From Phragmitibacter flavus (GTDB lineage: Bacteria; Verrucomicrobiota; Verrucomicrobiia; Verrucomicrobiales; Verrucomicrobiaceae), in assembly GCF_005780165.1 (NCBI RefSeq), contig NZ_VAUV01000005.1:248001-312000 (forward strand): DNA of 64,000 bases, read 5' to 3'. A program made the position numbers and the translations under genes. The notes under the pieces are model-generated. The model ran no database searches. It was not told the origin of the DNA and saw only the letters and a list, made by a program, of their open reading frames with translations. Below, one piece after another: positions 34,283 through 61,115 of this stretch (positions are counted from its first letter, which is position 1; the number at the start of each line of letters is the position of its first letter).

Positions 34283-35455
34283 ATGGGCAGGAAGATCGAG
34301 GGCGGAATCAAAGAATATCAAGACCTTGTGCGGTTTACGGCTTCCTCTGCTGATGTTTCTGCGAAAGACCAGATCGACCTCATGTCCCGTAATTGGTTTA
34401 GTTTAACCGCTGGCAGAACTGAAGCCATCCAACATGAATACGTGGATTCCCGCACTGGATTGACTGAAACGGTGCGCATTACTGGTGGTGCTGAACATGG
34501 CGGGATTGCCACTATCTATGATCAAGATCTCCTGATTTTTGCTATCTCACAATGGATTGATGCCAAGCGCATGGGGGTTCCGGTTTCCAGACGCATCCAT
34601 TTCAAACCATATCAGTTTTTCGCATGGTTGAACATTTCGCCTCAGGGCACTGCTTACACACGGCTCAAGGATGCGCTGAACCGTCTAAAGATGACGAGTA
34701 TCCAGACGACTGTTCGCTCACAGGTTGGCAAACGGACGCGAAACCGTATCAAGCAATTTTCGTGGATCTCCGAATGGGAAATCACTGAAGAGGAAGGCGA
34801 AGTTCGCGGCGTCGAAGTGGTTCTGGCCGAATGGCTGTTTGAAAGCATTCAGGATTTCCATGTGCTGACGCTCGATAAACGATATTTTGAGATTCCGGGT
34901 GGAGTCGAACGCTGGCTATACCTCTATGCGAGGAAGGCAACCGGTGGGCCGAATGGCATGTGGAAAGAGACCTTCAAGAGCCTTTACCAGAAATCCGCAT
35001 CACAGCAGGCATACAAGCACTATGCAAGTGCCCTCAGAAAGCTGGTTGAAAAGAATGACCTTCCGGGCATTCGCCTTGAAAAGGTCCGTTCCAGTCAGGG
35101 GAAAGACATGCTGTTAATGGAGCGCACTGAAAAGCGCGTTGCGCCAGAAAACAAAAGCGTTCCTCAGATTGAAAGCCAGTTGTCACTCATCGAGCGCACT
35201 CCTCTTGAAGAGGCGTGGGAGAATGTATTGGAAATCATGCGTAAGCATATCGGAGCCGACCAGACCAAAGCATGGCTTGAAAAACTTCAATTGGTGAGCC
35301 TGGAGGGCGATATTGTTACCTACAAAGCCCCTTCAAAGTTCATAGCTGAATGGGTGGAAAACAATTTCAAACACAAGCTTGAAGCGGCCTGGGAGTCCAT
35401 TGGACAGACCGTGAGTGCAATTCGGATTGAGGCCAAAGGAAAGGCTGCTGCTTAA
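34283..35455 (+). CDS. repA: Replication initiator RepA with C-terminal DnaA domain I-like region
   Basis: A 390-residue plasmid initiator. Residues about 30-290 resemble the RPA/RepA initiator family (NWFSLTAGRTE, IFAISQWIDAKRMG, RLKDALNRLKMTSIQTTVR, FEIPGGVERWLYLYARKA), with two winged-helix-like parts expected to bind iterons. Residues about 308-375 (LEEAWENVLEIMRKHIGADQTKAWLEKLQLV, then YKAPSKFIAEWVENNF) match the N-terminal domain I of DnaA. In DnaA that domain contacts helicase and self-associates. The iterons lie directly upstream, so autoregulation is likely. Confidence 0.85.
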   Translation: MGRKIEGGIKEYQDLVRFTASSADVSAKDQIDLMSRNWFSLTAGRTEAIQHEYVDSRTGLTETVRITGGAEHGGIATIYDQDLLIFAISQWIDAKRMGVPVSRRIHFKPYQFFAWLNISPQGTAYTRLKDALNRLKMTSIQTTVRSQVGKRTRNRIKQFSWISEWEITEEEGEVRGVEVVLAEWLFESIQDFHVLTLDKRYFEIPGGVERWLYLYARKATGGPNGMWKETFKSLYQKSASQQAYKHYASALRKLVEKNDLPGIRLEKVRSSQGKDMLLMERTEKRVAPENKSVPQIESQLSLIERTPLEEAWENVLEIMRKHIGADQTKAWLEKLQLVSLEGDIVTYKAPSKFIAEWVENNFKHKLEAAWESIGQTVSAIRIEAKGKAAA

Positions 35456-37086: not shown

Positions 37087-38622
37087 TCAGTATTTTTGGG
37101 GGAACTGGGGCCTGATGTAGTTCTGGGCGACTGGTTCGCCTTTGCGGGTTCCTACCCATCGCCTGCCCCCCTGAAAGATGATGGAATCCACTTTAAACTC
37201 GGATTCCTGGCCGCCAGTCCTCAGCATGGTGAACTCCTGAGGCTGCACCACATATTCAACCACCATGCTGCCCCCTGCACTCTGGTTCATGGCTCCGCCT
37301 TTTGCCAATGCCTCGGACATGCCGCCATAGAATTGGGCCTGCCGGGTTTTGCCGATGGAGTCTGCTGCCCAATTGTTGGTCGTCGGGTCGCCGTTGGCGT
37401 GGAAAATCTTGGTTTGCAGGTTGCCAAGGAAGCTCTCTGCGTCGGAACGGGCGTTGCTGCCTCCGAAAGCTGAGAAGTAGCTGGGGAGATTTTGGGTAAG
37501 GTAGACGGTGCAGGCGCGGGAGCTTCTGGCCGTGCTTTGGAAAAGCGCGTCGTAGGAATTGACGAAAAACTGTGATTCGTCCGCCCACAGGAAAACCGGG
37601 CGAGCCGCAGCCTGAGCCGCTTCGCGGGAGGTGCCTGCGGAAATCCTTCTCTCAACTGCCCTTTGCCAGATGAACTTGAAAAGAACTTGTGCGAACTGCC
37701 CCAGCTCGTTGAACTCCTTAACCGGCAGATTCAGAATGATAATCTTGCCATTGAAGGTGTCCTCTGGGGAAAAGTTGAGGTCTGTGCAAAACAGCTCCCG
37801 CAGCATACCGCGCAGAAAACAGTCGGCCATGCTGGTGAAAGTCGAGACGATAACGGAACGCGTCTCAGGAGCAAGGTTCGGAAATTCCCGCAGCCAGAAG
37901 TCGCGTGTCAGCTCGAGGTCACTCGCCCTGCCCTCACTTTTGACTTTGCCTGCTGCCACTTCCAAAAGGGCAAAGCAGGCAGACTTCTGCTGCCATTCAG
38001 GGTCATCCGCTTCTTCTGTGGAACGGGGGGCAGATGTGATGATGCGGTAGAGCGACGGAAGGTCAATGTCATCCATGGCAATCACTGCGAGGTCTATCGC
38101 ATTGCGGAGGAGTTGCTTGAGTGTGCGCTGCCAGTAAGCGTCCTGTCCACCACCCTGCCCCTGCTTCCGTTCCGCAGCTTCCAGCACGCTGCAAAACAGG
38201 TTTACAAGGTTTTCGGTGTGCCCTGCCCCGGTGCCGGGACGGTTGAATTCATAGCGGAGGAAGTTGAACCGGTGGGGTGATCCCGGCTCCACAATGAGCA
38301 ATTCTGTCTCACGTCCTGCTGCCTTTGCATACTGCTTCCAGGCGAGCACCTCGTCGGCCTTGGCGGTCAAAACAACACCCCCCATGTTGGCCTCAACAAA
38401 AGCTCTGGCGATGCCCTGCCCGCTTCCCGAAGATTTTCCTGAACCTGTGCCTCCAAAAATCTGCACCCCTTCAAAAGCATCCTTAAGACACCAGTAGTTT
38501 TCAGGGCGGCAAGTTTTGCCGTCCGCACTCAGCTCAAGAAGTGCCTCTTCATCGTCCGGCCAGTTCCGGTGAACCGCTGGAGGGATTGTCTGTTTGGAAT
38601 TGGTGAGGGCGAGTTCATCCAT
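37087..38622 (-). CDS. Type IV coupling ATPase (VirD4/TraD-like), soluble form
   Basis: A 511-residue hexameric-type ATPase that links relaxase-bound DNA to a transfer channel. Walker A is GGTGSGKSS at residues 58-66, Walker B is RPVFLWADESQFF near residue 345, and TVYLTQNLPSYF is the downstream sensor region. The usual N-terminal pair of membrane helices is missing; only about 50 residues precede Walker A. The gene diverges from the MobF relaxase gene across a 352-bp gap. Confidence 0.88.
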   Translation of the reverse strand: MDELALTNSKQTIPPAVHRNWPDDEEALLELSADGKTCRPENYWCLKDAFEGVQIFGGTGSGKSSGSGQGIARAFVEANMGGVVLTAKADEVLAWKQYAKAAGRETELLIVEPGSPHRFNFLRYEFNRPGTGAGHTENLVNLFCSVLEAAERKQGQGGGQDAYWQRTLKQLLRNAIDLAVIAMDDIDLPSLYRIITSAPRSTEEADDPEWQQKSACFALLEVAAGKVKSEGRASDLELTRDFWLREFPNLAPETRSVIVSTFTSMADCFLRGMLRELFCTDLNFSPEDTFNGKIIILNLPVKEFNELGQFAQVLFKFIWQRAVERRISAGTSREAAQAAARPVFLWADESQFFVNSYDALFQSTARSSRACTVYLTQNLPSYFSAFGGSNARSDAESFLGNLQTKIFHANGDPTTNNWAADSIGKTRQAQFYGGMSEALAKGGAMNQSAGGSMVVEYVVQPQEFTMLRTGGQESEFKVDSIIFQGGRRWVGTRKGEPVAQNYIRPQFPQKY

Positions 38623-38974
38623 GCAGTCGGTGGTTTGAGTGGCTGGAATCCTAGCCGGGAAGCAGGCTTGCTGCGAGCGGAAAAGACAGCCTAAGCTCTG
38701 CTTAGGAGAGATGTCTGAAGATCATGTTGCAACATTGCTAGCTTGCTAGCTCCCTAGCTTGTTAGACTGCTTTCATGGCTGCAAACTCGCTTGCAACCAG
38801 CCTTGCCAGCTCGCAACCAGACTTGCAGGCTTGCGGTCTCGCTGGGTGGCTAGGCTGCAACTTTGCCAGTCTGCGTGCGTGCTGGGTAGCTCGCTTGATT
38901 GCTGGCAAGCAGGCAATATTTGCCGGTATTCCGGTAAAATGGATTTCGTGGATGCGTTGTGGTAAACTGAAACG
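38623..38974. other. Candidate origin of transfer (oriT) region
   Basis: A 352-bp gene-free gap between the divergent coupling-protein and relaxase genes, the usual place for oriT. It holds a perfect hairpin CCTAAGC-TCT-GCTTAGG (38690-38706) and a palindromic cluster TTGCTAGCTTGCTAGC (38735-38750). Many TTGC/GCAA and CTAGC fragments run to 38910, and TGCCGGTATTCCGGTA lies just before the relaxase. No nick site is recognised. Confidence 0.5.
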
Positions 38975-41900
38975 ATGCTCAGGGTAGTAGCTCACACGAG
39001 CGCGGCAGCGGCTCGAAAATATTACGCGGAAGGTTTGAAGCGTGAGGACTACTATTCCGAAAAACAGGAAATAGTAGGCAAGTGGCATGGGAAGGCGGCG
39101 ACCCTGCTGGGCATTTCCGGGGATGTCGATAAAGAGCATTTTGCTGCCCTCGTGGAGAACCGGCATCCGCTCACCGGGGAGAAGCTGACACCCCGCACCA
39201 AGGACGGTCGCCGGGTTGGCTACGACCTCAACTTTCATGCGCCAAAAAGTCTCTCGGTGCTTTATGCCCTGACTCAGGACAAGGAGGTGCTAAAGGCGTT
39301 TCGGCAGGCGGTTGCAGACACGATGACGGAACTTGAGGAGAGGGCGGAAACGCGGGTTCGGAAAAAAGGGGCGCAGGCGAGCCGCCTCACCGGGAACCTC
39401 GCCTGGGCGGAATTTATCCACTTCACTTCGCGTCCGGTAGGCGGTATTCCAGACCCTCACCTGCACGCCCACTGCTTCACCTTCAACGCAACTTTTGACC
39501 AAAATGAAGACCGCTGGAAAGCGGCGGAATTTGGAGCCATCAAACGCGAAGCCCATTATGCAGAAGCAGCCTTTCATTCCCGGCTGGCCGGTGCGCTTGC
39601 TGCGCAAGGTTATGAAATTTCGCGCCGAAAAGCTGGCTGGGAAATCAAGGGGATGCCCGCCAGCGTCATAGCCAAGTTCTCGCGGCGAACCGCGCAGATT
39701 GAGCGGATGGCCGATGAAATGGGTATCAAGGATGCCAAGGCAAAGGATGCGCTCGGAGCTGCAACCCGCGAGGGAAAACGGCACGGCCTGACTTTTTCAG
39801 ACCTGCTGGCGGCGTGGAGTGTCCGCCTCACCGATGACGAAAAAGCGCAAATCTCAAAGGTTTGTTATGACAAGGGACATGCAACGGTAGCCAAAATCTC
39901 TGCCGTTGAAGCCGTGGATTATGCCATGGCGAAGCTGTTTGAACGCCAGTCCGTGGTCGAGCGCGGCCATATTCTGGCGGCTGCACTCCGTTTCGGGGCA
40001 GGGGACACCAGTCCCCAAGCCATCAAAGCGGAGTTCGAAAGGCGCGGCCTGATTGGCCGGAAAGTCGGGGAGGAGCATCTTTGCACATCGGTTGCCGTGC
40101 TGGCCGAAGAGGTCGCCCTGATCGGATTCGTCAGAACAGGCCGGAATTCTGCCATGCCGCTTGGCGGCAAAGGCAGGTTGGCCATTTCAGAAAAGCTCTC
40201 TGACGAACAGAGGGCGGCGGTCAAGCATCTGCTAACCAGCCGGGATCAGGTGATGGCAATACGCGGCGGGGCTGGGGTTGGCAAAACCACACTTATGAAG
40301 GATGCGGTCGCTGCCATTGAGGCGCGTGGCCTGAAAGTGTTCGCCTTTGCTCCTTCTGCCGTCGCTTCCCGCGAGACCTTACGCGAAGCGGGGTTCGCTG
40401 GTGCTGACACGGTCGCGCATCTGATGCTGAATGAGAAGATGCAAAAGCAGGTTCAGGGGCAGGTGATATGGGTCGATGAAGCGGGGTTGCTTGGGGTTCG
40501 TGACCTGTGGCGTATTATGGAGATCGCCGGGCCAAATACCCGCGTCATCCTGACGGGTGACACAGCGCAGCATTCGCCTGTCGCAAGGGGGGATGCGTTC
40601 AGGCTCCTGCAAAAACATGCTGGCCTTAGGGTGGCAGAAGTGACGGAGATCCGCAGGCAGGAGATCGAGGACTACAAAAAGGCCATTGAAGCCATCAGCA
40701 AAGGAGACCTCCGAACTGGATTCAGGCGCCTCGAAGCTCTTGGGGCTTTCGTCGAGATCGAAGATGAGGCAACCCGGCACAAGGAGCTTGCTGCTGATTA
40801 CCTTGCTCTCAGCAAACGGGGAGAACCGCCGTTGGTGGTTTCGCCGACTCATCTTGAGAGTGCTAAGGTGACGAACGCCATTCGTGAGGCGCGGCGGGAC
40901 GCTGGTCAGCTCGGACCAGAAAGGCATGTTCTTCAATACCAAAATCTACAGTGGGAAGAGGCTGAACGGCAGCTTCCTGAGAATTACCGTGCCGGTCTGG
41001 TGGTGCAGTTCCACCAAAATGCCAAGGGCATCATGCGAGGAGCGATATTCCGTGTTGTGGGGCAGGGCGAAGATGGCTCTATCCAGATGCAGAACCGCTC
41101 CGGGGACGTGATGACGCTGCCCATCAAAGACGCTGCCAAATACCTTGTTTATGAGGAGCGCGAGCTTGCCCTTGCAAAGGGAGACCGCATCCGAATCACG
41201 AGGAACGGGGAAAGCGAGAATGGCAAGCGCCTGAATAATGGCAATGTGCTGACTGTCGAAAAGTTTGGCAAACAAGGGCAAATTATCCTCAGTAACGGGG
41301 CAGTCCTTGATGCCAATCACGGTCATATTGCGCATGGATATTGCCAGACATCGCATTCAAGCCAGAGCAAAAGTGTTCAGGATGTGCTGATTGCGCAGAG
41401 TGCGGATTCGTTCAAAGCGGCATCGCGTGAACAGTTTTATGTTTCGTGCAGCCGGGGCAAACAAACGGTCAGGATTTATACTGACAACCGCAGTGACTTG
41501 CAGCAAGCTGTCGGCAATTCCTCTACCCGCATGTCTGGCGTGGAACTGGCGGAACTGACTTCAAAAGACCTTTCCGGATTCATGAGCAGCGAAATGGGAG
41601 CCAAACAATGGAGGGACGCCATCAAGAGCCGCAGGGGGCTGGATGGCTCGAAAACCTTCGTTGAGCAGCTTGTCGAGCAGCGGAAGACCGATCCTACGCT
41701 CAAGAAAGAGGAAGGCATCTCGTGGAAGGGATATATTGAGATGCGCCGGAACCTGGTCGGGGCGGATGGAAAGAACCGATCCAAGGGGCATCCAGCCGGT
41801 CAGCAGAAAGCTGGTGCGGCCAAGGGTAAAACCACACCAAAGCGCAGCGAGCATTCAGAGGCTCGGGTTGCAGAATTGAAAGCAGCCCAGGAAGCTAAAA

Positions 41901-42205
41901 AATCACAAACTCCGCCAAAGAAAGAGACTCCTAAGGGGCGTCTGGTGAAGGCATATGAATCAGCCGCCAGCCATTTCAAGAAAGTGGCTGACAAGGTGCG
42001 CGGGAGCGCGAAGCAGAAGGCAGAGAAGAAAGAAGTCAGGATGGGCAAAACGACTGCGAAGCCGTTGCAGGAAAACAACGCGGGCAGGGCAGCGGATCAT
42101 ACTGCACGCGCAAAGACTGCCAAAGCTGGCAAAGAGAAGGCAAAGGCTGCACAACAACAAAAGGCTCAGTCGCGGAAGGCACCGGTGCAAACCCCTAAAA
42201 AGTGA
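38975..42205 (+). CDS. MobF-family conjugative relaxase-helicase (TrwC/TraI)
   Basis: A 1076-residue relaxase. The N-terminal 300 residues are the HUH relaxase: tyrosine pairs Y16/Y17 and Y26/Y27 and the three-His motif DPHLHAHCF (H162, H164, H166). A RecD-like 5'-3' helicase follows, with Walker A GGAGVGKTT near residue 430, then IWVDEAGLLG, and HGYCQTSHSSQSKS near the end. The last 180 residues are Lys/Ala-rich and probably disordered. It nicks oriT and leads the strand into the recipient. It starts a three-gene operon. Confidence 0.93.
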   Translation: MLRVVAHTSAAAARKYYAEGLKREDYYSEKQEIVGKWHGKAATLLGISGDVDKEHFAALVENRHPLTGEKLTPRTKDGRRVGYDLNFHAPKSLSVLYALTQDKEVLKAFRQAVADTMTELEERAETRVRKKGAQASRLTGNLAWAEFIHFTSRPVGGIPDPHLHAHCFTFNATFDQNEDRWKAAEFGAIKREAHYAEAAFHSRLAGALAAQGYEISRRKAGWEIKGMPASVIAKFSRRTAQIERMADEMGIKDAKAKDALGAATREGKRHGLTFSDLLAAWSVRLTDDEKAQISKVCYDKGHATVAKISAVEAVDYAMAKLFERQSVVERGHILAAALRFGAGDTSPQAIKAEFERRGLIGRKVGEEHLCTSVAVLAEEVALIGFVRTGRNSAMPLGGKGRLAISEKLSDEQRAAVKHLLTSRDQVMAIRGGAGVGKTTLMKDAVAAIEARGLKVFAFAPSAVASRETLREAGFAGADTVAHLMLNEKMQKQVQGQVIWVDEAGLLGVRDLWRIMEIAGPNTRVILTGDTAQHSPVARGDAFRLLQKHAGLRVAEVTEIRRQEIEDYKKAIEAISKGDLRTGFRRLEALGAFVEIEDEATRHKELAADYLALSKRGEPPLVVSPTHLESAKVTNAIREARRDAGQLGPERHVLQYQNLQWEEAERQLPENYRAGLVVQFHQNAKGIMRGAIFRVVGQGEDGSIQMQNRSGDVMTLPIKDAAKYLVYEERELALAKGDRIRITRNGESENGKRLNNGNVLTVEKFGKQGQIILSNGAVLDANHGHIAHGYCQTSHSSQSKSVQDVLIAQSADSFKAASREQFYVSCSRGKQTVRIYTDNRSDLQQAVGNSSTRMSGVELAELTSKDLSGFMSSEMGAKQWRDAIKSRRGLDGSKTFVEQLVEQRKTDPTLKKEEGISWKGYIEMRRNLVGADGKNRSKGHPAGQQKAGAAKGKTTPKRSEHSEARVAELKAAQEAKKSQTPPKKETPKGRLVKAYESAASHFKKVADKVRGSAKQKAEKKEVRMGKTTAKPLQENNAGRAADHTARAKTAKAGKEKAKAAQQQKAQSRKAPVQTPKK

Positions 42206-47829: not shown

Positions 47830-48849
47830 CTACTTCATGTTTATAGCAGATTCAAGGATGCCGATCTCAAGCTCTGATTGAGCAAGTGCTCCCAGATCCA
47901 TGAAAATTCCAGAAATCACTCTCTTGAACTTGGCGGACGCTTCTTCCGGCAGTGCGGCGTCCAGTTTATTAAATAGCTCGGTTTGTAAGGTTTGGTATTG
48001 GCGATAGCTGGTGACCGCATCAAGCAGGAAATTGTCAGGTTTCTGGCTTTGTGTCCCGTTCCATGCCCGACGGCTGATCTCTTCTTTGCCTTCCTCGGTA
48101 AGTTTATCGAATCCGGTTTTATAAAATTGTTCAAGTTGGCCGAAGTGCTCCCTCGTAAATTGGGCGTAGCTGAGCAGGACTTCGTATTGTTTTCGTTCAG
48201 CGGCGTTCAGCGCATTTTCCTGTTCGACCAGAGCGGCAACGTCTTTTCTGGATACGGCACTCCCGCTTCCCGAAACAAGAGCTGATTGGAGTTTTAACTG
48301 CAAGTGCTCGAACCCGCCTTCGACACTGTTGCCGCCTTTCATTGCTTCGAATACCAGTTCTTGGTGCCGATTAAGTATTTCAATGGCTACTGTTCCGGTG
48401 TTTTGTTCGCCTTGTATACCCTGCCTCGTGCACCTACCTGCTTCTTTGGCGAGCACATCCAAGCCGAGCTTGGGGGAGAGCAGGTTCCAGTTAGTGACCA
48501 ACTGGTTTAGGTATTCATCTGTCAGATGGTCTGGCAGGCTGTTCCGGGTTTTTCCTGTTTTTGACCTGAACTTTTCCGAGACACGTCCATGTTCAGCTTG
48601 GATGTGCTCGATGTATGGTTCCGGGCTGCCGTAGTATTCCATGCTCCCGGCGATCTGGAGGAAGATGTTTGTGAGATTTGTCTGGGCAGGCTTAAATCCC
48701 TCATTTGGATCAAAAAAACGCAGATAGGCTGTAGATCGCGGGGCGTCCTGCGCGGAGGCAAATGTGGGGAGCAGAAGCAACAAGGGCGCAATGTAAAACG
48801 CGTAAATTGCTAAATTCCAGAGTGTTAACGATTTTTGAACCAGTTTCAT
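47830..48849 (-). CDS. Exported protein sharing a motif with the convergent neighbour; start inside an inverted repeat
   Basis: 339 residues from the ATG at 48849 (a GTG at 48864 is the alternative). A signal peptide (MKLVQKSLTLWNLAIYAFYIAPLLLLLPTFASA) leads to a mostly helical mature protein. The FGQLEQFYKTGFDKLTEEGKEEISRRAWNG stretch matches the neighbour at 46960-47829. The start region lies inside the left copy of the 25-bp inverted repeat, so inversion of the adjacent segment would change its promoter and first codons. The function is unknown. Confidence 0.65.
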   Translation of the reverse strand: MKLVQKSLTLWNLAIYAFYIAPLLLLLPTFASAQDAPRSTAYLRFFDPNEGFKPAQTNLTNIFLQIAGSMEYYGSPEPYIEHIQAEHGRVSEKFRSKTGKTRNSLPDHLTDEYLNQLVTNWNLLSPKLGLDVLAKEAGRCTRQGIQGEQNTGTVAIEILNRHQELVFEAMKGGNSVEGGFEHLQLKLQSALVSGSGSAVSRKDVAALVEQENALNAAERKQYEVLLSYAQFTREHFGQLEQFYKTGFDKLTEEGKEEISRRAWNGTQSQKPDNFLLDAVTSYRQYQTLQTELFNKLDAALPEEASAKFKRVISGIFMDLGALAQSELEIGILESAINMK

Positions 48850-48860
48850 GGGATTCTGTT
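48836..48860. repeat. 25-bp inverted repeat, left copy
   Basis: The perfect reverse complement of 49489-49513. It contains GAACCAG and CTGTTC arms about 12 bp apart, the general look of a tyrosine-recombinase core site. It covers the translation start of the leftward gene. Confidence 0.92.
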
Positions 48861-48875
48861 CCACGGGAGTGAAAC

Positions 48876-49442
48876 ATGAACCGAGAAACCTACAGCGCCT
48901 ATGACCTCGAGGGTCGGCGGAAATATCTTACTCAGGAAGAGGGGCGCAGGTTCCTTAAAATTGCTCGCAGGCGGAAACGCGCTGAGGCACTTTTCTGCAT
49001 GACGATCTACTACACCGGAATGCGGATTTCGGAGGCTTTGGCGCTGTCGGGTCAGGACATCGATTTCTCCACAGGTGTGATCCGTATACGATCGTTGAAG
49101 AAGCGCGAGCGCCGGGAATTCAGGCGAATTCCCGTGCCCAACTCACTTTTGTCGGGACTGCGACAATTGAGGGGAGACAGGACCGAAGGACCGCTTTGGA
49201 CATTTTCCCGAACCACTGGTTGGAGAATCATCAAGCAGATCATGAACGAAGCGGAAATATCAGGTATACATGCGACAACAAAAGGACTGAGACATGCTTT
49301 TGGAGTCAGAGGCGCAATCGCCAAAATCCCCCTCAATTTATTGCAGCTTTGGTTTGGCCATTCCCAGTCAGCCACCACTGCGATTTATCTTAATGTGAGG
49401 GATGACGAAGAGCGAACGCTGATTCGAAGAACGTGGAAATAG
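48876..49442 (+). CDS. Minimal tyrosine recombinase between inverted repeats
   Basis: 188 residues, only the catalytic domain plus a short lead. Active-site residues: R50 (TGMRISEAL), the box II R139 and H140 (KGLRHAFGV, with Lys136 where His is usual), H162 (FGHSQSATT) and Tyr171. There is no room for a full core-binding or arm-binding domain, so a resolvase or invertase role is more likely than classical tRNA-site integration. The start codon is 27 bp from the divergent gene's ATG. The gene lies inside a segment bounded by 25-bp inverted repeats. Confidence 0.88.
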   Translation: MNRETYSAYDLEGRRKYLTQEEGRRFLKIARRRKRAEALFCMTIYYTGMRISEALALSGQDIDFSTGVIRIRSLKKRERREFRRIPVPNSLLSGLRQLRGDRTEGPLWTFSRTTGWRIIKQIMNEAEISGIHATTKGLRHAFGVRGAIAKIPLNLLQLWFGHSQSATTAIYLNVRDDEERTLIRRTWK

Positions 49443-49488
49443 CCGAATTTACCGATTGAGAACTGGCGTCAATGGCGTATTTTTATGA

Positions 49489-49513
49489 AACAGAATCCCA
49501 TGAAACTGGTTCA
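49489..49513. repeat. 25-bp inverted repeat, right copy
   Basis: Perfect inverted copy of 48836-48860, 46 bp past the recombinase stop. A start-like ATG precedes it, and the short reading frame here begins with the same MKLV codons as the leftward gene. It then continues into sequence with no sign of a real protein up to about 49761. Confidence 0.92.
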
Positions 49514-49761: not shown

Positions 49762-49956
49762 TCAAAGAAGTCGCTTCCGAATAATATTGCGAACGATTGC
49801 GGCCACGGTTTCAACTGGCTGGCGCATCGGGTTGCCAGTCCAGCCCAGGCATGCAGCGCGGAGGGCAAGCTGGCTTTCCAGCTCATCATACTCCGCATCT
49901 GTGAGGTCTGCCGTTTCCATCAGCTCGGCATCAGAGAGGGAAAGGAGCAAGTTCAT
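49762..49956 (-). CDS. Small protein translationally coupled to ardC
   Basis: 64 residues, helical (SDAELMETADLTDAEYDELESQLALRAACLGW, then VETVAAIVRNIIRKRLL). Its ATG overlaps the ardC stop (TAATG), which strongly supports translation. No family recognised. Possibly an accessory of ArdC. Confidence 0.65.
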   Translation of the reverse strand: MNLLLSLSDAELMETADLTDAEYDELESQLALRAACLGWTGNPMRQPVETVAAIVRNIIRKRLL

Positions 49957-50849
49957 TATGCGACCTCCTCTGGTTGAGTGTTCAGGATGTAGTTCGCGGC
50001 CTTTTGCGCCTGTGAGGCTGCGCGAATGATCCAGCCTTTTGCGTCCTTGGATTTAAGGGCATTGATCCAGCTTTGCAGGTAGGCGGCTGAGTTTGAAAGC
50101 TCGTCTTCCATGATTCCGGCGTGGGCGTTCAGAAATGAAGCCCCCATTTCGGCCAACAGTTCTTCCTCGGCGTAGGTCTTGATTGCAGTGTCTCCGCCTG
50201 CGTCAATGCCCTTGTTCTCAAGCAGGGATTTGCGGGCAAGGCGTTTACTGTGGCCGGTGCTGTGCGCCAGTTCGTGAAATAGTGTGGAATAATACTCTTC
50301 TTCACTGCCAAAAAATCCCGCTTCCGGCATGTGGACGCTGTCAGTTCCGGGACGGTAGCAGGGGATTGCTTTCCCTTCCTTGATAACGGGAGCGTTTGGC
50401 ATTCCTGCCACAATGTTACGTGCGCGGGCGGTCTTTTCCGTCAAGGAAAGTTCGGGCAGATTTTCCACTGCAGGAAACTCGATGCCTTCGATCTGCGAGG
50501 CATGGAAGACGGTGTAGGCCTTCAGGAAGCGGCGGGTTTCCGGGTCTTCCCCTGTGGCTGCGTGCTCGTCCTCTTTGGTATAGGTGCCGTATTTAACGAC
50601 CAGCGAACCGCGTTCACCTTTCCTGACATGTCCGCCAAGTTCTTTGGCCTGAATGAAGGTCAGAAAATAGGGGGATGTGAAGCGAAGGCTTCCAAGCAGG
50701 AAGACGTTAATTCCCTGATAGGCTTTGCCTGTTGAAAAGTTCTGCGGGAACCCCACCTTTGAGAAGTAGGGTGATTTCCACGGAACAACTCCTTGTTCCA
50801 GTTGGGTGATAATGCGGTCTGTAACTTGTTGGTAGATGTCTTGTTTCAT
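49956..50849 (-). CDS. ardC: ArdC-like antirestriction protein
   Basis: 297 residues. The N-terminal ssDNA-binding ArdC domain (DIYQQVTDRIITQLEQGVVPWKSPY, then FSTGKAYQGINVFLL) is followed by a zincin-like metalloprotease domain with FHELAHSTGH (HExxH). ArdC proteins protect incoming plasmid DNA from restriction during conjugation. The start at 50849 has a near-perfect ribosome site (GGAGGAAACA); earlier in-frame codons have none. Confidence 0.9.
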   Translation of the reverse strand: MKQDIYQQVTDRIITQLEQGVVPWKSPYFSKVGFPQNFSTGKAYQGINVFLLGSLRFTSPYFLTFIQAKELGGHVRKGERGSLVVKYGTYTKEDEHAATGEDPETRRFLKAYTVFHASQIEGIEFPAVENLPELSLTEKTARARNIVAGMPNAPVIKEGKAIPCYRPGTDSVHMPEAGFFGSEEEYYSTLFHELAHSTGHSKRLARKSLLENKGIDAGGDTAIKTYAEEELLAEMGASFLNAHAGIMEDELSNSAAYLQSWINALKSKDAKGWIIRAASQAQKAANYILNTQPEEVA

Positions 50850-51162
50850 ATTGTTTCCTCCGATGCGTTTTTGCATATGCTTTGCCTTTGCAAAAACATG
50901 CGTGACCCCAGCCGGAGGAGTGGGCGGGCAGTCAAGGGAGGGTCTAAAGGAGGGGTATCTCCCAAAGTCCCGCATCGAGGCACGAGAGAGGACAATTTGG
51001 GGACACCTTTGGATGCCCTTGACGGAGCGAACACCCGCGAGGCAGTTAGAGATGCAGGAGTGAACGCAGGGAACGGGAGCGTCAAACTATGCCGCTTTTA
51101 AGCGGTAATTAATTGGCACGGGGACAGACCGGAACGGTGAAGACTGAAGCGCAGCGGAAGGC

Positions 51163-51342
51163 AATGCCGGGACGGCTGCTTCCTGTGCAGGTGCAGCAGG
51201 ACGTGGCAGTTGGCAGTGTCCGGTGGAAAGGCGGCGGACTCTGCCAAAGGGGCAGGGAGCTGGAAGCTCGGGGCGTTACGGGGTGCCCCCGTTAGAATGG
51301 GTAGCGCCTCACGAAGTCGGCGCGAGGGAAAGGCTTTTCCCC
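51163..51342 (+). ncRNA. Candidate structured RNA, copy A (conserved core 51269-51342)
   Basis: The 74-bp core matches 60421-60494. Three hairpins are visible: CGGGG-TGC-CCCCG (51279-51291), GCGCC/GGCGC (51304-51308 with 51319-51323), and GGGAAA/TTTCCC (51326-51341). The middle stem keeps pairing although its bases differ from copy B. Weaker similarity extends upstream to about 51163 (ATGCCGGGACGGC, GACGTGGC). It may belong to the HEARO/omega-RNA class that accompanies IscB-type nucleases, but no such protein is adjacent. The 548-bp gap 50850-51397 has no gene. Confidence 0.5.
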
Positions 51343-51397
51343 CCACTTGCGTTCATTGTTGTATGGAATAGAGAAACCCCATAAACTGCAACCAGAC

Positions 51398-51888: not shown

Positions 51889-52395
51889 ATGATTAAAACA
51901 GGGATGATTCAAAGGCTGGCATTAACAGCCCTAATGGTTCTGTGGCTGGTGCCTGCGAATGCGGCTGAATACAGCGTAACCGGTAAAGTGGTGGGAGTGC
52001 ATGACGGGGACACGATCACCATAGTGGATGAAGACAAAGTTCAGCTCAAGATCAGGCTGGCCTCCATAGATGCCCCGGAATCAGCGCAGCCTTTTAGCGC
52101 GGCTTCAAAGAAAGCGCTGTCTGACATGGTATTTGGAAAGCGGGTAAGGGTGGATGTGCAGGGCAATGACCGCTACCGCAGGGCGATAGGGGACGTTTAT
52201 GTTGGTAAGAAATGGGTGAACCTCGCACTAGTTGAACAGGGCATGGCGTGGCAGTATCTTCAATACAGCAAAGACCCGGAACTGAGGGCAGCAGAGCAGC
52301 GTGCGCGGGAATTGAAACTTGGCTTGTGGCAGGATAAAAAGCCCACCCCGCCCTGGCTGTGGCGCAAAGCCAAGAGGACAAACGCGGGGAGGTAA
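51889..52395 (+). CDS. Exported thermonuclease-like protein (SNase family)
   Basis: 168 residues with a signal peptide (LALTALMVLWLVPANAA) and an SNase fold: VVGVHDGDTITIVDED, IRLASIDAPESAQPF (catalytic Arg and Glu), NDRYRRAIGDVYVGKKWVNLALVEQGMAW (second Arg). It should cut DNA or RNA in the periplasm. SNase-like genes are common on conjugative plasmids. Confidence 0.88.
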   Translation: MIKTGMIQRLALTALMVLWLVPANAAEYSVTGKVVGVHDGDTITIVDEDKVQLKIRLASIDAPESAQPFSAASKKALSDMVFGKRVRVDVQGNDRYRRAIGDVYVGKKWVNLALVEQGMAWQYLQYSKDPELRAAEQRARELKLGLWQDKKPTPPWLWRKAKRTNAGR

Positions 52396-52406: not shown

Positions 52407-52439
52407 TCTGCCAAAGGTAGGCTGGGGCGTTACGGGGTG
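52407..52439 (+). repeat. Partial copy of the RNA-like repeat (copy C)
   Basis: CTCTGCCAAAGG followed by GGGGCGTTACGGGGTG matches two blocks of copy A. The match then stops before the second hairpin, so this is a truncated copy. Confidence 0.6.
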
Positions 52440-52533
52440 TTGCCGATAAAGAAATGGTTTAAGCGTCATTCGAAAGAAGCGTCTGGTTCAGAAATACTTG
52501 CATCCGTCAGGTTGCCTCTTTATTTAGTTCTCT

Positions 52534-53259: not shown

Positions 53260-53493
53260 CTATTCAGCAGCAGTGGGTTCGATCAAAGCAATCCATGCTT
53301 CGGCCTCGGTTAGGGTAGTGATGAGCTTGGAAATGTCAGACCTGTGGAAACTTCCTGACTGGCGCCATGCATCTCCTGATTTGAAGCTGCGGTTTACGGT
53401 GACGGTGTGGCGTGGTTTGCCCTTGCTGTCATTGAGCCAGATGGTGGCTTTTATACTGCCGTTCCTGATCTCGTGTGCTGGTTTCTGATTCAT
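53260..53493 (-). CDS. Hypothetical small protein with duplicated leader
   Basis: 77 residues from the ATG at 53493, which has a GGAG site. Beta-rich (NGSIKATIWLNDSKGKPRHTVTVNRSFKSGDAWRQSGSF), like many small element-encoded proteins. Its upstream leader (53511-53641) closely resembles that of the gene at 60600-60962, so the two are likely regulated together. Confidence 0.6.
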   Translation of the reverse strand: MNQKPAHEIRNGSIKATIWLNDSKGKPRHTVTVNRSFKSGDAWRQSGSFHRSDISKLITTLTEAEAWIALIEPTAAE

Positions 53494-53510
53494 AAAGACT
53501 CCTTTCAATT

Positions 53511-53641
53511 GGTTTCTCCCCGCTGGGATTGGGAGCGTGAAAGGCAGCCGGTGAAGCAGGGTGTTGTCATGCCCAACACGGATTCTTGGAGCGGGCCGGG
53601 TATTGACTGCCCTGCGCGGCTGCTACGTTTCCCAAAATGCC
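53511..53641 (-). promoter_or_regulatory. Duplicated leader/promoter region, copy 1
   Basis: About 130 bp similar to 60979-61115. Blocks include GGTTTCTCCCCG, TGGGATTGGGAGCGTGAAA, a hairpin GTGTTG/CAACAC, and GGTATTGACTG. It directly precedes the small gene at 53493. The 269-bp gap 53494-53762 holds nothing else clear. Confidence 0.6.
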
Positions 53642-53762
53642 GGTCGGGAGAACCGGAAGGTCTGTATCAGAATTCTTTCAGCAGACAGAACTGCGCTGAT
53701 ATTGATGCTTGATAGGCGTTTGCCAGCCTATTGCGCCCACACAATGCCGGGACGGCAGTGCT

Positions 53763-54527: not shown

Positions 54528-55196
54528 TTGATTTTGTCCCAAAATCAGTTTACACCTGCCGGAATGGAGCGAAGCAACAAACTTGGCGGGAAGCGGGACG
54601 GTGCCGGAAGGCCTCGGAAATTCGCGCAATATGAGGAGCCTACCACCCGCATTCGGGTGCCAGTGAGCCTTACCGATGACATTTACCGTTTCATCAGCTC
54701 CGATATTCGCATACCGCTGTTTTCGTCGGTGGCTCCTGCGGGTTTTGTGTCTCCTGCGGATGACTTCATTGAAACGACATTCACCGTTAAGGAGCTGGTG
54801 GAGTATTTCATGCAGCGACCGGCAGCCACATTCCTGGTGCGCATTTCCGGCTGGTCGATGAAGAATGCAGGCATCAATGATGGCTCTATTGTCATTTGCG
54901 ACCGTGGGCTTGACCCTGCGGATGGTGACGTGGTGCTTGCCTCGGTTGACGGTCAGGTGACGTGCAAACGCCTGCGGCTGGAAGGGGAGACAGTGGTCTT
55001 GTGTCCTGACAATGAAGAATTTGAGCCGGTGATCGTCGGGGCGCTGAGCGATCTTGTGGTGTGGGGTGTCGTCACCGGGAATTTCAACATGCACAGGAAC
55101 GCCAATGGCTCCAAAGGCAAAGGCAAGAAGATGTCCCGAATCAAAATGGGCGCGACTGGTTCGGTAGCCCCTTCCAAAACCAAAAAGGCTTCCTGA
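54528..55196 (+). CDS. umuD: UmuD-like S24 peptidase with N-terminal extension
   Basis: LexA/UmuD-fold self-cleaving serine protease. The cleavage region is VAPAGFVSPADDF, the catalytic Ser is in ISGWSMKNAGI, and the catalytic Lys is in VTCKRLRLEG. At 222 residues it is longer than UmuD (about 140), with an N-terminal GGKRDGAGRPRKF segment and a basic tail. The start may instead be the ATG at 54564. With umuC 37 bp downstream it forms a plasmid-borne DNA polymerase V operon. Confidence 0.88.
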   Translation: MILSQNQFTPAGMERSNKLGGKRDGAGRPRKFAQYEEPTTRIRVPVSLTDDIYRFISSDIRIPLFSSVAPAGFVSPADDFIETTFTVKELVEYFMQRPAATFLVRISGWSMKNAGINDGSIVICDRGLDPADGDVVLASVDGQVTCKRLRLEGETVVLCPDNEEFEPVIVGALSDLVVWGVVTGNFNMHRNANGSKGKGKKMSRIKMGATGSVAPSKTKKAS

Positions 55197-55232
55197 ACAT
55201 GCCGCTGCAAGCGCAAAATTCGGGAGCCTGAT

Positions 55233-56492
55233 ATGTTTGCCCTGGTTGACTGCAATAATTTTTACGCCTCCTGCGAACGGGTTTTCAACCCTTCGCTTGA
55301 AGGCAAGCCCATCGTAGTTCTGTCGAATAATGATGGCTGTGTTATCGCCAGGTCTAATGAGGCAAAAGCCCTCGGCATCAAAATGGGCGAGCCTTATTTC
55401 AAGGGGCGAGAGCTGATGGAGAAAAACCGCGTGGTGGTGTTTTCCTCAAATTACGAACTCTATGGCGACATGTCGGCGCGGGTGATGCAGACCTTGCTGC
55501 TGCACACGCCGGTCATTGAGAATTACTCAATTGATGAGGCGTTCCTCGATATGGATGGGTTCGGGAAGCCGCTTGAACATGCGGCAAACCTGCGCCGCAT
55601 TGTGAAACAGTGGACGGGGATTCCGGTTAGTGTCGGCATCGGGCCGACAAAGACCCTGAGCAAAGTTGCGAACAGGATCGCCAAAAAAGCTCTGGTGAAT
55701 GTGGGTGTTTGCGGGCTGCTCACCGCTGAGGAAATCACGGCTGCGCTTGTGAGTTTCCCTGTAGAAGATGTGTGGGGGATTGGGCGGCAGTCGGCTGGCT
55801 TCCTTGCAAAGCACGGGATCGGCACGGCAGAGCAATTCCGGGCAATGCCTGACAACTGGATTCGGAAGAACATGCATGTGGTGGGGCTTCGCATTGCCTG
55901 GGAGCTGCGCGGCATCAAATGCCATGAGCTTGAGTTCACGCCTCCGGCCAAGAAGAGTATTTGTGTCTCGCGTTCCTTTTCAGAGAGGCTGACTGCTATG
56001 GAATCCGTTAGCGAAGCACTGCTTACGCATACGGCGAGGGCAGGGGAGAAGCTGCGGCATAACCGGCTGCTGGCAACGCGTATGATGGTCTTCCTGCACA
56101 CAAGTCCGCATGCCCCCAATGAGCCTTTTTATTACGGCAAGTTGCCGATAAAACTCCCGTTCCCGACGAATGACACTTTGGATTTGAGTCATTTTGCCGT
56201 GGCTGCTTTGAAACAGGTTTTCAAGGCAGGGCACCGCTACATGAAATGCGGGCTGGAGCTTTCGGAGATGGTTGCAGAAGGAACGGAAAATCTTGAGCTG
56301 TTCGCTCCGGTCAAGAAGGAGCGGAACCATGCCTTGATGAAGGCCATGGATGAGCTGAACCAGAAAATGGGTCGGAACACGGTAGTTTTTGCTGGGTCTG
56401 GAGTGAAGCGCGAATGGTTCACCAAGCGCGACCTCCGTTCCCCGCGCTATACCACTGACATGAATGAACTGGTGATCGCATACGCGAACTGA
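55233..56492 (+). CDS. umuC: DNA polymerase V catalytic subunit UmuC (Y family)
   Basis: 419 residues, full length. Y-family motifs [21 protein letters not shown] (first metal Asp) and [11 protein letters not shown] (catalytic acidic pair), then the thumb helix-hairpin-helix ([21 protein letters not shown]) and C-terminal UmuC-specific domain ([17 protein letters not shown]). It performs error-prone synthesis past lesions. Plasmid copies can help repair incoming DNA. Confidence 0.94.
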
Positions 56493-56530: not shown

Positions 56531-59029
56531 TTAAACAGTTTGTTGGAGCATAATCGTGTTCTCGATAACGGTTTCGATTTCGCTGTAAATATCAACACTT
56601 TCCTTTGCGCACTCAATCGACACGATCAATGAGTAGTTCATTATCGCCTCCGCTCGGTCATGGCTGGATCGCGTGCGCCACCATCCTGTAACGGGATAGA
56701 CCGCAATGTGTTTCATGCTGATTAAATCAGCGGCAGAGCCCTCCCACATATCTGAGTGAATCGAGCCCTTGAAGCATTCCTGGCCGAGTAGCCAACCGTC
56801 GGTTGAGCCTCTGACGTGTTGTCTGTCATCTGTAATAAATTCGTCTGATGCGATTTTGTTTACATCGGCGTTCAAATCTTCGGCTGCCTGGCCAGGAGCC
56901 GACACTTTAAACCTGAGAGCACAACTTGCGTAGCGGAACTGTGATGTGTAACCACGATTGCCTGGGTTGGGTTCGATGAAGTAGGACAGCGTGACGCGCA
57001 TTCTTACTTTTTCAGTCGGATTGGTAGTCAGGGTATTTGCTGGCCAAGGCAGACTGTGGAGATGCATTTTGTTGAAGAGAGTCTTTTCACCTTCAATCTT
57101 AAAGGGCTGAATTTGACATTCAGAAATCAGGGTTGCGCTATTTTTAGAGCATTCAATGGCGCGACGAAGATTTGGCACGCCATAGCCAACCGTTCGCAAG
57201 AGAAAGGTAGCCCTATCGGATTTCAGCCGACTTTTTTCTCGTGGGATTGTTGTTTCCATCGCATCTGTCCAATGAGCGGAATGAATCATCAATCCCCGGA
57301 TGGTCTCAGGTGAGTAATCGGGATATTCCGCCATCAGGATGGCCGCCATTCTGGCAGCCAAAGCTGTGGCTGGACTCGTTCCGGATGTGGTGCCGAACAC
57401 GCCCTCATTGTATTGAGCGTGGGTGGATAGTAACATCAGTTCGTCGAGATTCAGGGTAGAATGGTTAGCCGCTTGATAGCCTGCGTTTCCGCCTTCAAAA
57501 ACGATGTCAGGTTTATTTGGCCAATGGTTAGCCCATTCAATGGACGTGCTGCTGACTGGTGAGAGCGCACCACGAATTGCAAGAGGAGTATACGAAGAAG
57601 CGAGTCGAATCGTCTGTAACTCAGTATACGCGCCAACACAAAGTGCATTCCATGACTGTCCTGGATTGCGAACTGTGTGTTGGTAATTAGACGCCGGATA
57701 GTCTTTCCATAAATCTTGTGGAATGTTTCCTGCGCTTAAACACAAAAGTCGACGCAACTCCCCTTCATTGTCAACTCCCGCTGCTAAATTATCCATTTGC
57801 GAGGACCATGATGTGGGAATCGCTTGATTGGGTTCTGACATCGTGGTGGTGATGCACCAGATTCTTCTCCGATCGCGTCTGCGTGCCTCAGATAGAGAAA
57901 CACCCTGCGCTGTATAGTAGCCAGCGAGTTTTTCATCAGTATTTTTTTGAAGAGGCGGCGGCACTATTTTTACGCCCTCCACATTTACAGGCATTTCAAC
58001 GCGTTGGGTTCCTGAAAGTATTCCAGCTAAGTCGCCATACAGACACAATCCGGCCATAAGAGTTCCGTGATTGTCATCATCGCCTGAGCTCCAGCTTAGT
58101 TCAATGGTCATGTTATCCTCTTCTCCGATGAGCTTTTCGAGCATCGGATGGCCACGATTGATTCCAGTGTCCAGAACACTGATCCATGGTGCATTAGGAT
58201 CTGAATCTGAGATTCGCACCAGCAGATCATCTCCATATTCAATTTGCTCGGATGGAAGCATGCCGGAAAATACGTCAGCGTAGTCACGACCTCGTCGAAT
58301 CTCAGAAATGCAGTTGAGCACTGCAACATCCCTTGCAAAATCACTTCCACGACCGAACGCTGCAAGAATCGTATGTTCAGGTAATTTGATCCTACCTTTC
58401 CCAACGCGAATACCTTGTTGCTCAGCGAGGATTACAAATTGTTTTAGAATGACCTCGCGTTCGTTTTCGGAAGCACCGCGTCGCAACCATATTTCTAACC
58501 ATAGCTCGTCGTTTGCAGGAAAGGGTTCCGTTTCTGTCCATAGTTCCTTGGCTGCGGCTAAGTGGACACGTTCAATAGCTTCAACGAGCGGTCGATATAG
58601 GGGTTTGCCTCTGTGTTTCTGAGTCAGATAACTATTTACTATTTCATCGAGGACCGAGAGTTTTCCGTCGGGCACAAACCAGGTCTGATTGTTCAGCAGC
58701 GTATGGCCAGATTGAACTGTTCGCTCATTCAGCAATTCCCACCCATTTTCAATAAGCCGATCTACCGGAATAAAAGTATTTGGCGCACTCTCAAGTTCTA
58801 CAGATATTCCCCGAGCCTTGATAGATTCATTTCCTTCCCAGCTTTGTGCAAGCACCTGATAGCTAGCGTCTATGGATTGGATCTGTCGATCAAGTGCCCT
58901 CCCATGCCCCGCGAAATTGTGACGAGTGGGTGTAGTAGGGGAATTACCTCTTTTCTTGGACTTGTAATCCTTTTGAGAATAAAATCGTTCAACGCGTAGG
59001 TGGCGCTTTCTTTGTTCTTCTTGCGCCAT
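56531..59029 (-). CDS. ietS: Subtilisin-like serine protease IetS
   Basis: An 832-residue S8 protease. Triad: Asp near 286 (WISVLDTGINRGHP), His near 321 (DDDNHGTLMAG), Ser near 550 (TTSGTSPATALAARM). There is no signal peptide, so it is cytoplasmic. Its start overlaps the AAA ATPase gene by 41 bp. A protease-ATPase pair of this kind is the IetAS system, first described as a plasmid-stability toxin-antitoxin on a Ti plasmid and later reported as anti-phage. The assignment is by gene pair and domain match. Confidence 0.88.
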   Translation of the reverse strand: MAQEEQRKRHLRVERFYSQKDYKSKKRGNSPTTPTRHNFAGHGRALDRQIQSIDASYQVLAQSWEGNESIKARGISVELESAPNTFIPVDRLIENGWELLNERTVQSGHTLLNNQTWFVPDGKLSVLDEIVNSYLTQKHRGKPLYRPLVEAIERVHLAAAKELWTETEPFPANDELWLEIWLRRGASENEREVILKQFVILAEQQGIRVGKGRIKLPEHTILAAFGRGSDFARDVAVLNCISEIRRGRDYADVFSGMLPSEQIEYGDDLLVRISDSDPNAPWISVLDTGINRGHPMLEKLIGEEDNMTIELSWSSGDDDNHGTLMAGLCLYGDLAGILSGTQRVEMPVNVEGVKIVPPPLQKNTDEKLAGYYTAQGVSLSEARRRDRRRIWCITTTMSEPNQAIPTSWSSQMDNLAAGVDNEGELRRLLCLSAGNIPQDLWKDYPASNYQHTVRNPGQSWNALCVGAYTELQTIRLASSYTPLAIRGALSPVSSTSIEWANHWPNKPDIVFEGGNAGYQAANHSTLNLDELMLLSTHAQYNEGVFGTTSGTSPATALAARMAAILMAEYPDYSPETIRGLMIHSAHWTDAMETTIPREKSRLKSDRATFLLRTVGYGVPNLRRAIECSKNSATLISECQIQPFKIEGEKTLFNKMHLHSLPWPANTLTTNPTEKVRMRVTLSYFIEPNPGNRGYTSQFRYASCALRFKVSAPGQAAEDLNADVNKIASDEFITDDRQHVRGSTDGWLLGQECFKGSIHSDMWEGSAADLISMKHIAVYPVTGWWRTRSSHDRAEAIMNYSLIVSIECAKESVDIYSEIETVIENTIMLQQTV

Positions 59030-60029
59030 GACTTTCTATGGGTTTGCGTTTGGTTCGTTTGACACGCTCATCAATAGCCTTCAGCAGAAGTGCCGTTGTA
59101 AGCTTCGGTTTTTGTTCAATTAGTCTTTCTTTGACGGCATCATCAGCAGCTCTAACGGCCTCAGCGAGATTCAAGGTTGCAGAAGCATCGAGGATTTTTT
59201 TCCAATTTATAGCAGAACGCATTTCATTAGCAAGTCGTTGCTCAAAAACTGCCTTCAGCTCATCCTGAGATGGGAGTGTGTATTCAATAATGTCATCAAA
59301 ACGTCGGAAGAGCGCGTCGTCCAGCGACTCAGGATGGTTTGATGCAGCGATAATCAGACTATGCCCGCGCATACCCTCTAGGAAAACAAGGAAACTGTTG
59401 AGAACACGACGCATTTCTGCCACATCAGACTGGGCACCACGCGAAAGACCCAATGAATCGAATTCGTCAAAAAGAAATACCGCACGATGTGATTCGATTG
59501 CGTCGAAGACAATGCGAAGTTTAGAGGCCGTTTCGCCCAAGAATTTGGTGAAAAGCGCATCAAGCCGAAGCACAAAGAGCGGAAGTCCTAGCTCGTGAGC
59601 GAGAGCATGGGCTGTCATTGTTTTTCCGCATCCGGGAGGTCCGAGAAGTAACAAACGCTGGCGTGGCCTTAATCCGTGTTCGCGAAGTTTGTTAAATTGT
59701 TGCTGTTCCTTCACGACTCGCTTGAGACGGCGACTGAGGTCGGGTGAGAGCACCAATTGCTGCAAAGCAACCGTCGGCTGGATCAATTCGAGAAGTCCGG
59801 CCAGCTCCCCTTGCGGCCGTGCAAAATTTATAGAATTTGTTTTTGTCTGTGAAGGGAATTGCGCAATTCGTGGAGCTTTTGAGATGAGCTCTTGAATCTG
59901 TTTGGCAAGATCATCATGCCCTTTCCTAGCCTCATTCGCCGCAACCTGTAGGGCGGCTGTGCGAAAGCGTTCATCATCTCCAGCCACATGACTTTTGAGC
60001 AATTCGAGAATTTGACGCGCTGTGGCCAT
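58989..60029 (-). CDS. ietA: AAA ATPase IetA
   Basis: 346 residues. Walker A LLGPPGCGKT near residue 132, Walker B FLFDEFDS near 188, sensor SNHPESLDDALFRRFDD with the Arg finger. The N-terminal helical part (about 1-60) has no named domain. In IetAS the ATPase counteracts the protease (antitoxin-like role). It lies first in the operon. Confidence 0.9.
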   Translation of the reverse strand: MATARQILELLKSHVAGDDERFRTAALQVAANEARKGHDDLAKQIQELISKAPRIAQFPSQTKTNSINFARPQGELAGLLELIQPTVALQQLVLSPDLSRRLKRVVKEQQQFNKLREHGLRPRQRLLLLGPPGCGKTMTAHALAHELGLPLFVLRLDALFTKFLGETASKLRIVFDAIESHRAVFLFDEFDSLGLSRGAQSDVAEMRRVLNSFLVFLEGMRGHSLIIAASNHPESLDDALFRRFDDIIEYTLPSQDELKAVFEQRLANEMRSAINWKKILDASATLNLAEAVRAADDAVKERLIEQKPKLTTALLLKAIDERVKRTKRKPIESHGARRTKKAPPTR

Positions 60030-60251: not shown

Positions 60252-60494
60252 ATGCCGGGCGGGCCCTGGAGGCGGAGAGGCGGGCGACGTGGCTGCTGGC
60301 ATTGGAAGCGGGACGGGTCTGTTCTGATGGGGGAGGGAAGCAAACTGGCCGTTGTCGATGATGTAGGGCTTGCCCGGAAGAGTCGAAAATGGCGGGAGTT
60401 GCTTGAGGGGGGCGGGCAACCGGGGCGTTACGGGGTGCCCCCGTTAGAATGGGTAGCCGCTCACATCGTAGCGGCGAGGGAAAGTCTTTTCCCC
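60252..60494 (+). ncRNA. Candidate structured RNA, copy B (conserved core 60421-60494)
   Basis: The 74-bp core is the same length as copy A with only a few differences. The middle stem (GCCGC at 60456-60460, GCGGC at 60471-60475) differs from copy A at two pairs, yet both still pair. The stem just upstream (GTTGC/GCAAC) also replaces GAGCT/AGCTC of copy A. Such paired changes point to selection on RNA structure. The gap 60030-60599 holds this and no clear gene. Confidence 0.5.
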
Positions 60495-60599: not shown

Positions 60600-60962
60600 T
60601 CAGTATTCGCTTGGCAGCATAAGGACGTTGTCTGTGAAAAAGAATGTGATTTCATCCAGTGGGAAATCCGTGAACGGAATCAACTTGGTGAACACGAGGT
60701 TCATGTTGCCGTCTTCGCAGTCAAGACTTGCCGAATTGGTAGAAGTGAGTTTTAGCCGCCAGAGCTGGAATTGTTCTGCCGCGATAACAGGGATTCCCTG
60801 TGCAAAAGCGATCTCATCAAGCAGCCAGTAGGCTTCTCCGCAGTCGGCGACATGTTTGACCCCGTCGGTGTAGAGCACCTTGCGTGCGAAGGGATGGCGA
60901 TACCATTGTTCGGTGCCGGTGAACTGGCGAAGATCGGTCTCGGTTAGGGTTTTCTGTGACAT
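60600..60962 (-). CDS. Hypothetical protein with duplicated leader
   Basis: 120 residues, mixed alpha/beta (TEQWYRHPFARKVLYTDGVKHVADCGEAYWLLDEIAFAQ, then FQLWRLKLTSTNSASLDCEDGN). No family recognised. The ATG has a good AAGGAGC site. Its leader (60979-61115) duplicates that upstream of the gene at 53260-53493. Confidence 0.65.
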   Translation of the reverse strand: MSQKTLTETDLRQFTGTEQWYRHPFARKVLYTDGVKHVADCGEAYWLLDEIAFAQGIPVIAAEQFQLWRLKLTSTNSASLDCEDGNMNLVFTKLIPFTDFPLDEITFFFTDNVLMLPSEY

Positions 60963-60978
60963 AAAGCTCCTTGTTTCT

Positions 60979-61115
60979 GGTTTCTCCCCGATGGGATTGG
61001 GAGCGTGAAAAGCAGACGTTTGAGCTGGCTGTTGTCATGCCCAACACGGGAGCGCAGCGAATGGAGCGGGCGGGGTATTGACTGGACAGCGCGGATGCTA
61101 CGTTCCAAAAATGCC
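60979..61115 (-). promoter_or_regulatory. Duplicated leader/promoter region, copy 2
   Basis: Matches 53511-53641 in block order, including the TGTTG/CAACA hairpin around GTCATGCC. It precedes the 120-residue gene. The 312-bp gap 60963-61274 contains no gene I can support. Confidence 0.6.

Follow-up and report, generated by a model that had tools for sequence, protein, structure and literature searches.

The window, that is, the whole stretch of 64,000 nucleotides from Phragmitibacter flavus that was analysed (contig NZ_VAUV01000005.1), holds genes for ParA, RepA, a coupling protein and a MobF/TrwC relaxase between 33 and 50 kb, and two copies of a short repeat at 51.3 and 60.4 kb. The features are as follows.

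33131–33784, minus strand: ParA-like partition ATPase (PF01656, 6.9e-18)
34283–35455, plus strand: RepA-like replication initiator (PF10134, 6.8e-58)
37087–38622, minus strand: coupling protein, T4CP (PF02534, 2.6e-8; PF12696, 5.7e-6)
38690–38720, plus strand: oriT candidate, hairpin CCTAAGCTCTGCTTAGG plus AGAGATGTCT followed by GAA, with a guessed nic at 38716/38717; conserved, with covarying arms, 5′ of related relaxases
38975–42205, plus strand: MobF/TrwC relaxase-helicase (PF08751, 1.7e-72)
49956–50975, minus strand: ArdC-like anti-restriction gene, 5′ end towards copy 1 (PF08401, 1.3e-34; PF18818, 4.4e-28)
50976–51268, plus strand: variable hairpin-rich stretch from the ardC start to copy 1, probable 5′ part of the element; layout similar in relatives
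51269–51342, plus strand: repeat copy 1 (hairpins A, B and C), 3′ unit of the element
51889–52395, plus strand: SNase-family gene 3′ of copy 1 (PF00565, 6e-26)
52424–52448, plus strand: broken repeat copy behind the SNase gene, 5′ part only (7.4 bits)
54528–56492, plus strand: S24-peptidase (UmuD-like) gene (PF00717, 1.8e-23) and UmuC-like gene, the latter named by eye
56531–59029, minus strand: IetS-like subtilase
58989–60029, minus strand: IetA-like AAA ATPase, 5′ end towards copy 2 (5e-70)
60421–60494, plus strand: repeat copy 2
60600–60962, minus strand: DUF6876 gene, of a kind that recurs next to the repeat (PF21781, 3.6e-46)

A TrwC-type relaxase and a coupling protein, which together mark a MobF mobilisable element, were both present, and two tyrosine integrases were found to the right, outside the window. 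Among the genes examined, none was recognised as belonging to a T4SS, and the element is therefore probably mobilisable. Judging from this gene content, the window copies probably sit in an integrated mobilisable element. Separately, 28-nt inverted repeats (96%; 48836–48863 and 49486–49513) flank the gene of a 188-aa tyrosine recombinase (48876–49442) and reach into the starts of two divergently oriented ORFs (beginning MEQNPMKLV and MKQNPMKLV); this arrangement is a possible invertible switch.

The two copies are 74 nt each, 88% identical and spaced by 9152 nt, which bears out the initial annotation on their equal length and distance of about 9 kb. Their 36-nt 5′ parts are identical, where shuffles expect 0 such matches. 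The compensatory change that had been reported in the middle stem was found again: GCGCC/GGCGC in one copy and GCCGC/GCGGC in the other, with two pairs swapped and pairing retained. The hairpins immediately 5′ of the copies differ too, as had been stated (GAGCTGGAAGCTC at 51 kb vs. GTTGC...GCAAC at 60 kb). The conserved unit consists of hairpin A, GAATGGGTAG, hairpin B with the loop CACGNNGTA, and hairpin C, and conservation ends abruptly at C. The loop of hairpin B reads C-GNA-G in 59 of 78 readable copies. Folded as a single strand, positions 50970–51345 gave z = -2.4. Beyond the window copies, no further good copy was found in the same genome.

The first covariance model was built from seven copies and searched against 387 genomes of the order, of which 71 carried the repeat. 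Same-strand arrays with a spacing of 0.7–1.2 kb were common, and many copies were solitary. Outside the order, where a second model was added and the phylum was thinly sampled, the repeat was detected in 4 genomes. Its exact core pattern had no match in viral contigs, and copy 1 had no sequence match among 72,556 plasmids (PLSDB, E ≤ 1e-5). In loci L049 (about 9770–9810) and L050 (just left of 11219), the cargo terminates in hairpins B and C so diverged that the model did not detect them, and thus the family is probably wider than counted.

The alignment used for covariation comprised 94 distinct copies from 60 loci; the copies are not independent, and being fitted to the model they are biased towards the structure. 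Standard pairs filled 96.4% of 1925 cells, compared with 85.7 ± 0.4 in shuffles and 44–68% in slid controls. Changes on both sides were seen at 15 of 21 pairs (225 cells vs. a shuffled mean of 70), and no shuffle reached either value. The ratio of G-U to A-C was 94:12 over all pairs, with over half of the G-U supplied by one poor pair (columns 11–55). With helix 1 excluded it was 31:7, and five of these seven A-C cells came from pair 112–133, an apparent register slip. In helices 2–4, G-U was rare (about 2%). The excess of G-U over A-C indicates that the plus strand is the structured molecule, be it an RNA or single-stranded DNA. Selection for a strand-specific structure is thus strongly supported, and the wider covariance search speaks against the repeat being devoid of covariation. 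The initial annotation had called it a selected RNA structure; selection and strand specificity stand, and the molecule may be RNA or single-stranded DNA, since covariation fits both alike and cannot separate them.

The repeat was closely associated with the relaxase. MobF homologues were found in 33 of the 387 genomes, and 25 of these 33 carried the repeat (expected 6.1, p = 3e-14; p = 1e-6 within the family and 2e-5 outside it), p-values that are inflated by the shared ancestry of the elements. At the cut-off used, 46 of the 71 repeat-bearing genomes were without a MobF relaxase. By hand count, all 15 closely linked loci had the repeat on the relaxase-sense strand, irrespective of the side of the relaxase gene on which it lay. 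The opposite orientation occurred in G162, G211, G016 and a second array in G012, which involve distant relaxases or large distances. Between the coupling protein and the relaxase, the arms of the oriT candidate covary (CCTAAGC/GCTTAGG, CCTTAGC/GCTAAGG and CCTATGC/GCATAGG) and are followed by a constant AGATGTCTGAA on the relaxase-sense strand. The hairpin was absent at the more distant relaxases L184, L185, L190, L191, L194 and L195. The candidate presumably resembles the hairpin plus TTGTCT nic of R388. If it is the oriT, the relaxase-sense strand, and hence the repeat strand, would be the transferred strand (T-strand). The repeat itself was rejected as an oriT, since one element has several copies of it and another conserved candidate lies beside the relaxase.

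In 64 of 82 copies the gene upstream of the repeat was on the opposite strand, with its 5′ end towards the repeat, and in 18 it was on the same strand (p = 3e-7, the copies being non-independent; gene calls made by codon score), the latter including phage-like Rep, HigA and integrase. Downstream there was no orientation preference (37 vs. 33), and the next gene often began or ended a few bases from hairpin C. ArdC was the upstream gene in 11 copies, in four families and down to 55% identity, ArdA in three and DUF6876 in 13 copies elsewhere; HsdM, Cas3, IetA, the small genes c2, c3 and c4 of unknown kind and, in another order of the class, DUF932 were also found there. An SNase-family gene lies beside a copy in L015 as well. 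The S24-peptidase/UmuC-like pair is located between the two window copies. Cargo near copies matched IetAS (in the window), PDC-M68, PDC-S06, HEC-05, Mokosh-like systems, class II pAgo and Shedu.

Two further observations concern these neighbours. The genes c2 (L049, 9811–10074), c3 (window, 53260–53508) and c4 (L052, 11286–11978) recur at the repeat in the orientation of ArdC and may encode new anti-defence proteins. Another motif, GTCATGCCCAACACGG...GGAGCGGGCCGGG.TTGAC, also recurs: it makes up the leader of genes for DUF6876 and c3 beside the repeat (window 53499–53660 and 60967–61111; L009, L014 and L015) and probably belongs to the same regulatory stretch.

The computed results are thus three hairpins that covary on one strand, a link to MobF relaxases, a strand shared with the relaxase, opposite-strand anti-restriction and island genes upstream, and defence cargo. 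We propose, with about even confidence, that the repeat acts in cis as a folded, strand-specific element, located on the strand that is transferred in conjugation by MobF mobilisable elements of Verrucomicrobiota, and works like Frpo/ssi sites. Folding probably takes place on the single DNA strand sent into the new cell. Our best reading of its place is a new structural family in a leading-region anti-defence island.

The main alternative is that the repeat is, or is part of, a structured non-coding RNA transcribed from the plus strand and serving the island in some role, such as partner of a defence or anti-defence protein. Plus-strand covariation and G-U polarity suit an RNA equally well, and the conserved loop of hairpin B suggests a protein or tertiary contact. 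However, a terminator-like T-run followed hairpin C in just 2 of 94 copies, a promoter-like plus-strand site lay upstream of the repeat in 1 of 42, and no constant same-strand protein partner was found. The closeness of the neighbouring gene to hairpin C and the scarcity of G-U in helices 2–4 also argue against an RNA, which we regard as possible but rather improbable. The lack of a T-run likewise led us to reject an intrinsic terminator, and a 5′ leader of the opposite-strand mRNAs was rejected since the G-U polarity gives the wrong strand.

A second alternative, which we consider unlikely, is a recombination site, in which a cassette of one or more genes plus the repeat is joined after hairpin C by a recombinase, a relaxase or homologous recombination. 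The same-strand arrays and their spacing would fit, as would near-identical first copies with unrelated cargo directly after them and the cargo of L049 and L050 that ends in diverged hairpins B and C. However, cassette starts were not conserved, no core sequence spans the junction, and a GTTRRRY core was not conserved at cassette junctions, where sequences vary. IntI was present in 31 of 71 carriers compared with 141 of 387 genomes overall (p = 0.17), which is no enrichment, and it was below cut-off in the P. flavus genome and in about half of the carriers, so an integron was rejected. Many copies are solitary, and a recombination site would not predict that the strand of the repeat stays fixed relative to the relaxase. 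The sudden switch of cargo behind hairpin C may reflect site-specific joining, or merely homologous exchange within a conserved functional element, which would look identical. Like integron attC sites, the repeat forms tandem same-strand sites between cargo genes and would fold as a single strand. It differs from them in having no GTTRRRY core and no IntI dependence, in comprising three hairpins instead of one imperfect hairpin, and in being conserved in sequence and not in structure alone.

We consider it very unlikely that the repeat is a rolling-circle replication site, either an origin or a single-strand origin, of an HUH Rep element. A PF23343-like Rep gene lies directly 5′ of a copy in L017 (12748–13965) and, weakly and under the Pfam cut-off, in L016 (8743–9819). 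However, co-occurrence with PF23343 was at chance (6 of 28; 5.1 expected), and the repeat was close by at one of 30 Rep loci (G055), so that beyond the two adjacent cases HUH Rep was rejected as the mobiliser. A RAYT/Y1 transposase near the L014 copy, with GTAG before hairpin B as in REP sequences, was a single case and was also set aside. The repeat may share with complementary-strand origins of the sso/G4 type the clustering of hairpins that act on single-stranded DNA and the C-GNA-G loop of hairpin B.

The class originally suggested, a HEARO/omega guide RNA scaffold, is largely refuted and retains hardly any probability: the repeat resembles these RNAs in its multi-stem structure, its terminal hairpin followed by variable sequence and its mobile-element context, but the Rfam 15 search, HEARO (RF02033) included, gave no relevant match around both window copies (E ≤ 5), in 20 other repeat-bearing loci (E ≤ 0.1) or around two more (E ≤ 2), so that every Rfam family was rejected as its identity. 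The setting is a MobF mobilisable element and not an IscB transposon; no IscB-type nuclease gene adjoins the repeat among the window genes examined, and a search run without a positive control found no RRXRR/IscB N-terminal domain in 13 repeat-carrying genomes. The earlier remark that the repeat has no adjacent nuclease gene is right as far as HNH/RuvC nucleases go; a staphylococcal-nuclease homologue lies at 51889–52395.

The reading as a folded element on the transferred strand was compared with Frpo/ssi sites, which Masai and Arai reportedly described in 1997 as single-stranded DNA promoters or priming sites of plasmids. Like those of F-like, IncI and other plasmids, the element comprises hairpin-rich stretches of about 300 nt, located here 5′ of genes that would be leading-region genes templated by the T-strand, with several copies per element, anti-restriction neighbours and umu genes nearby. 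Their orientation, intergenic with an opposite-strand gene upstream, is that of the 64 copies counted above, the T-strand being tentatively assigned from the oriT candidate and its likeness to the R388 nic. The repeat differs in having three constant GC-rich hairpins, no detectable -35/-10 boxes and, for copy 1, no match among plasmids, and in its setting, namely MobF mobilisable elements of Verrucomicrobiota in which the relaxase is nearby. The function of Frpo/ssi sites, which lie on F-like plasmids, has been reviewed (PMC7690428). Leading-region anti-defence islands, with single-strand promoters and umu operons, have been described as having their genes on one strand, flanking umu genes and Frpo-like sites in between (PMC11541004); the ArdC/ArdA neighbours, the defence cargo and the S24-peptidase/UmuC-like pair match this description. 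Relaxases usually lie in the lagging region (PMC11541004), whereas under the assigned T-strand the MobF relaxase here would enter early. This placement, the 46 repeat-bearing genomes without the relaxase, the 18 copies with a same-strand gene upstream and the few loci of opposite orientation speak against our reading.

If the repeat strand is the T-strand, it would serve as template for the opposite-strand genes upstream. On arrival in the recipient, the single strand would fold and recruit the host RNA polymerase or primase, and thereby start early expression of ArdC, ArdA and similar genes and/or complementary-strand synthesis. A sigma-70 consensus promoter between the upstream genes and the repeat was found in 0 of 42 cases on the gene strand and 1 of 42 on the other, by a consensus scan with simple local shuffles in a phylum that may use other promoters. 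Since no -35/-10 pair was seen, the repeat does not qualify as a canonical Frpo; it may instead load primase or contain a promoter of an unusual type. Because the cargo changes exactly after hairpin C, the copies could also act as homology anchors for cargo exchange. We only tentatively suggest the more specific proposal that the repeat represents a new class of single-stranded DNA element on the T-strand. Such a class would have no sequence relationship to Frpo/ssi and no bacterial promoter boxes, would start early expression and/or priming of anti-defence genes during conjugation in Verrucomicrobiota, and would also serve as the joint for the exchange of defence cassettes.

Leading-region anti-defence islands and single-strand promoters have so far come mainly from proteobacterial and firmicute elements. 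The sequence of about 80 bases and three hairpins described here recurs on one strand in mobile islands of Verrucomicrobiota, beside genes that block or provide bacterial defence, and can be used as a signature to search this poorly studied phylum for such islands. Through its position, defence genes (Iet, pAgo, Shedu and PDC/HEC candidates) can be located, as can probable anti-defence genes (ArdC, ArdA, DUF6876, DUF932 and the small neighbours of unknown kind). The family also opens to experiment the question of how gene expression could begin on a transferred single strand that has no normal promoter.
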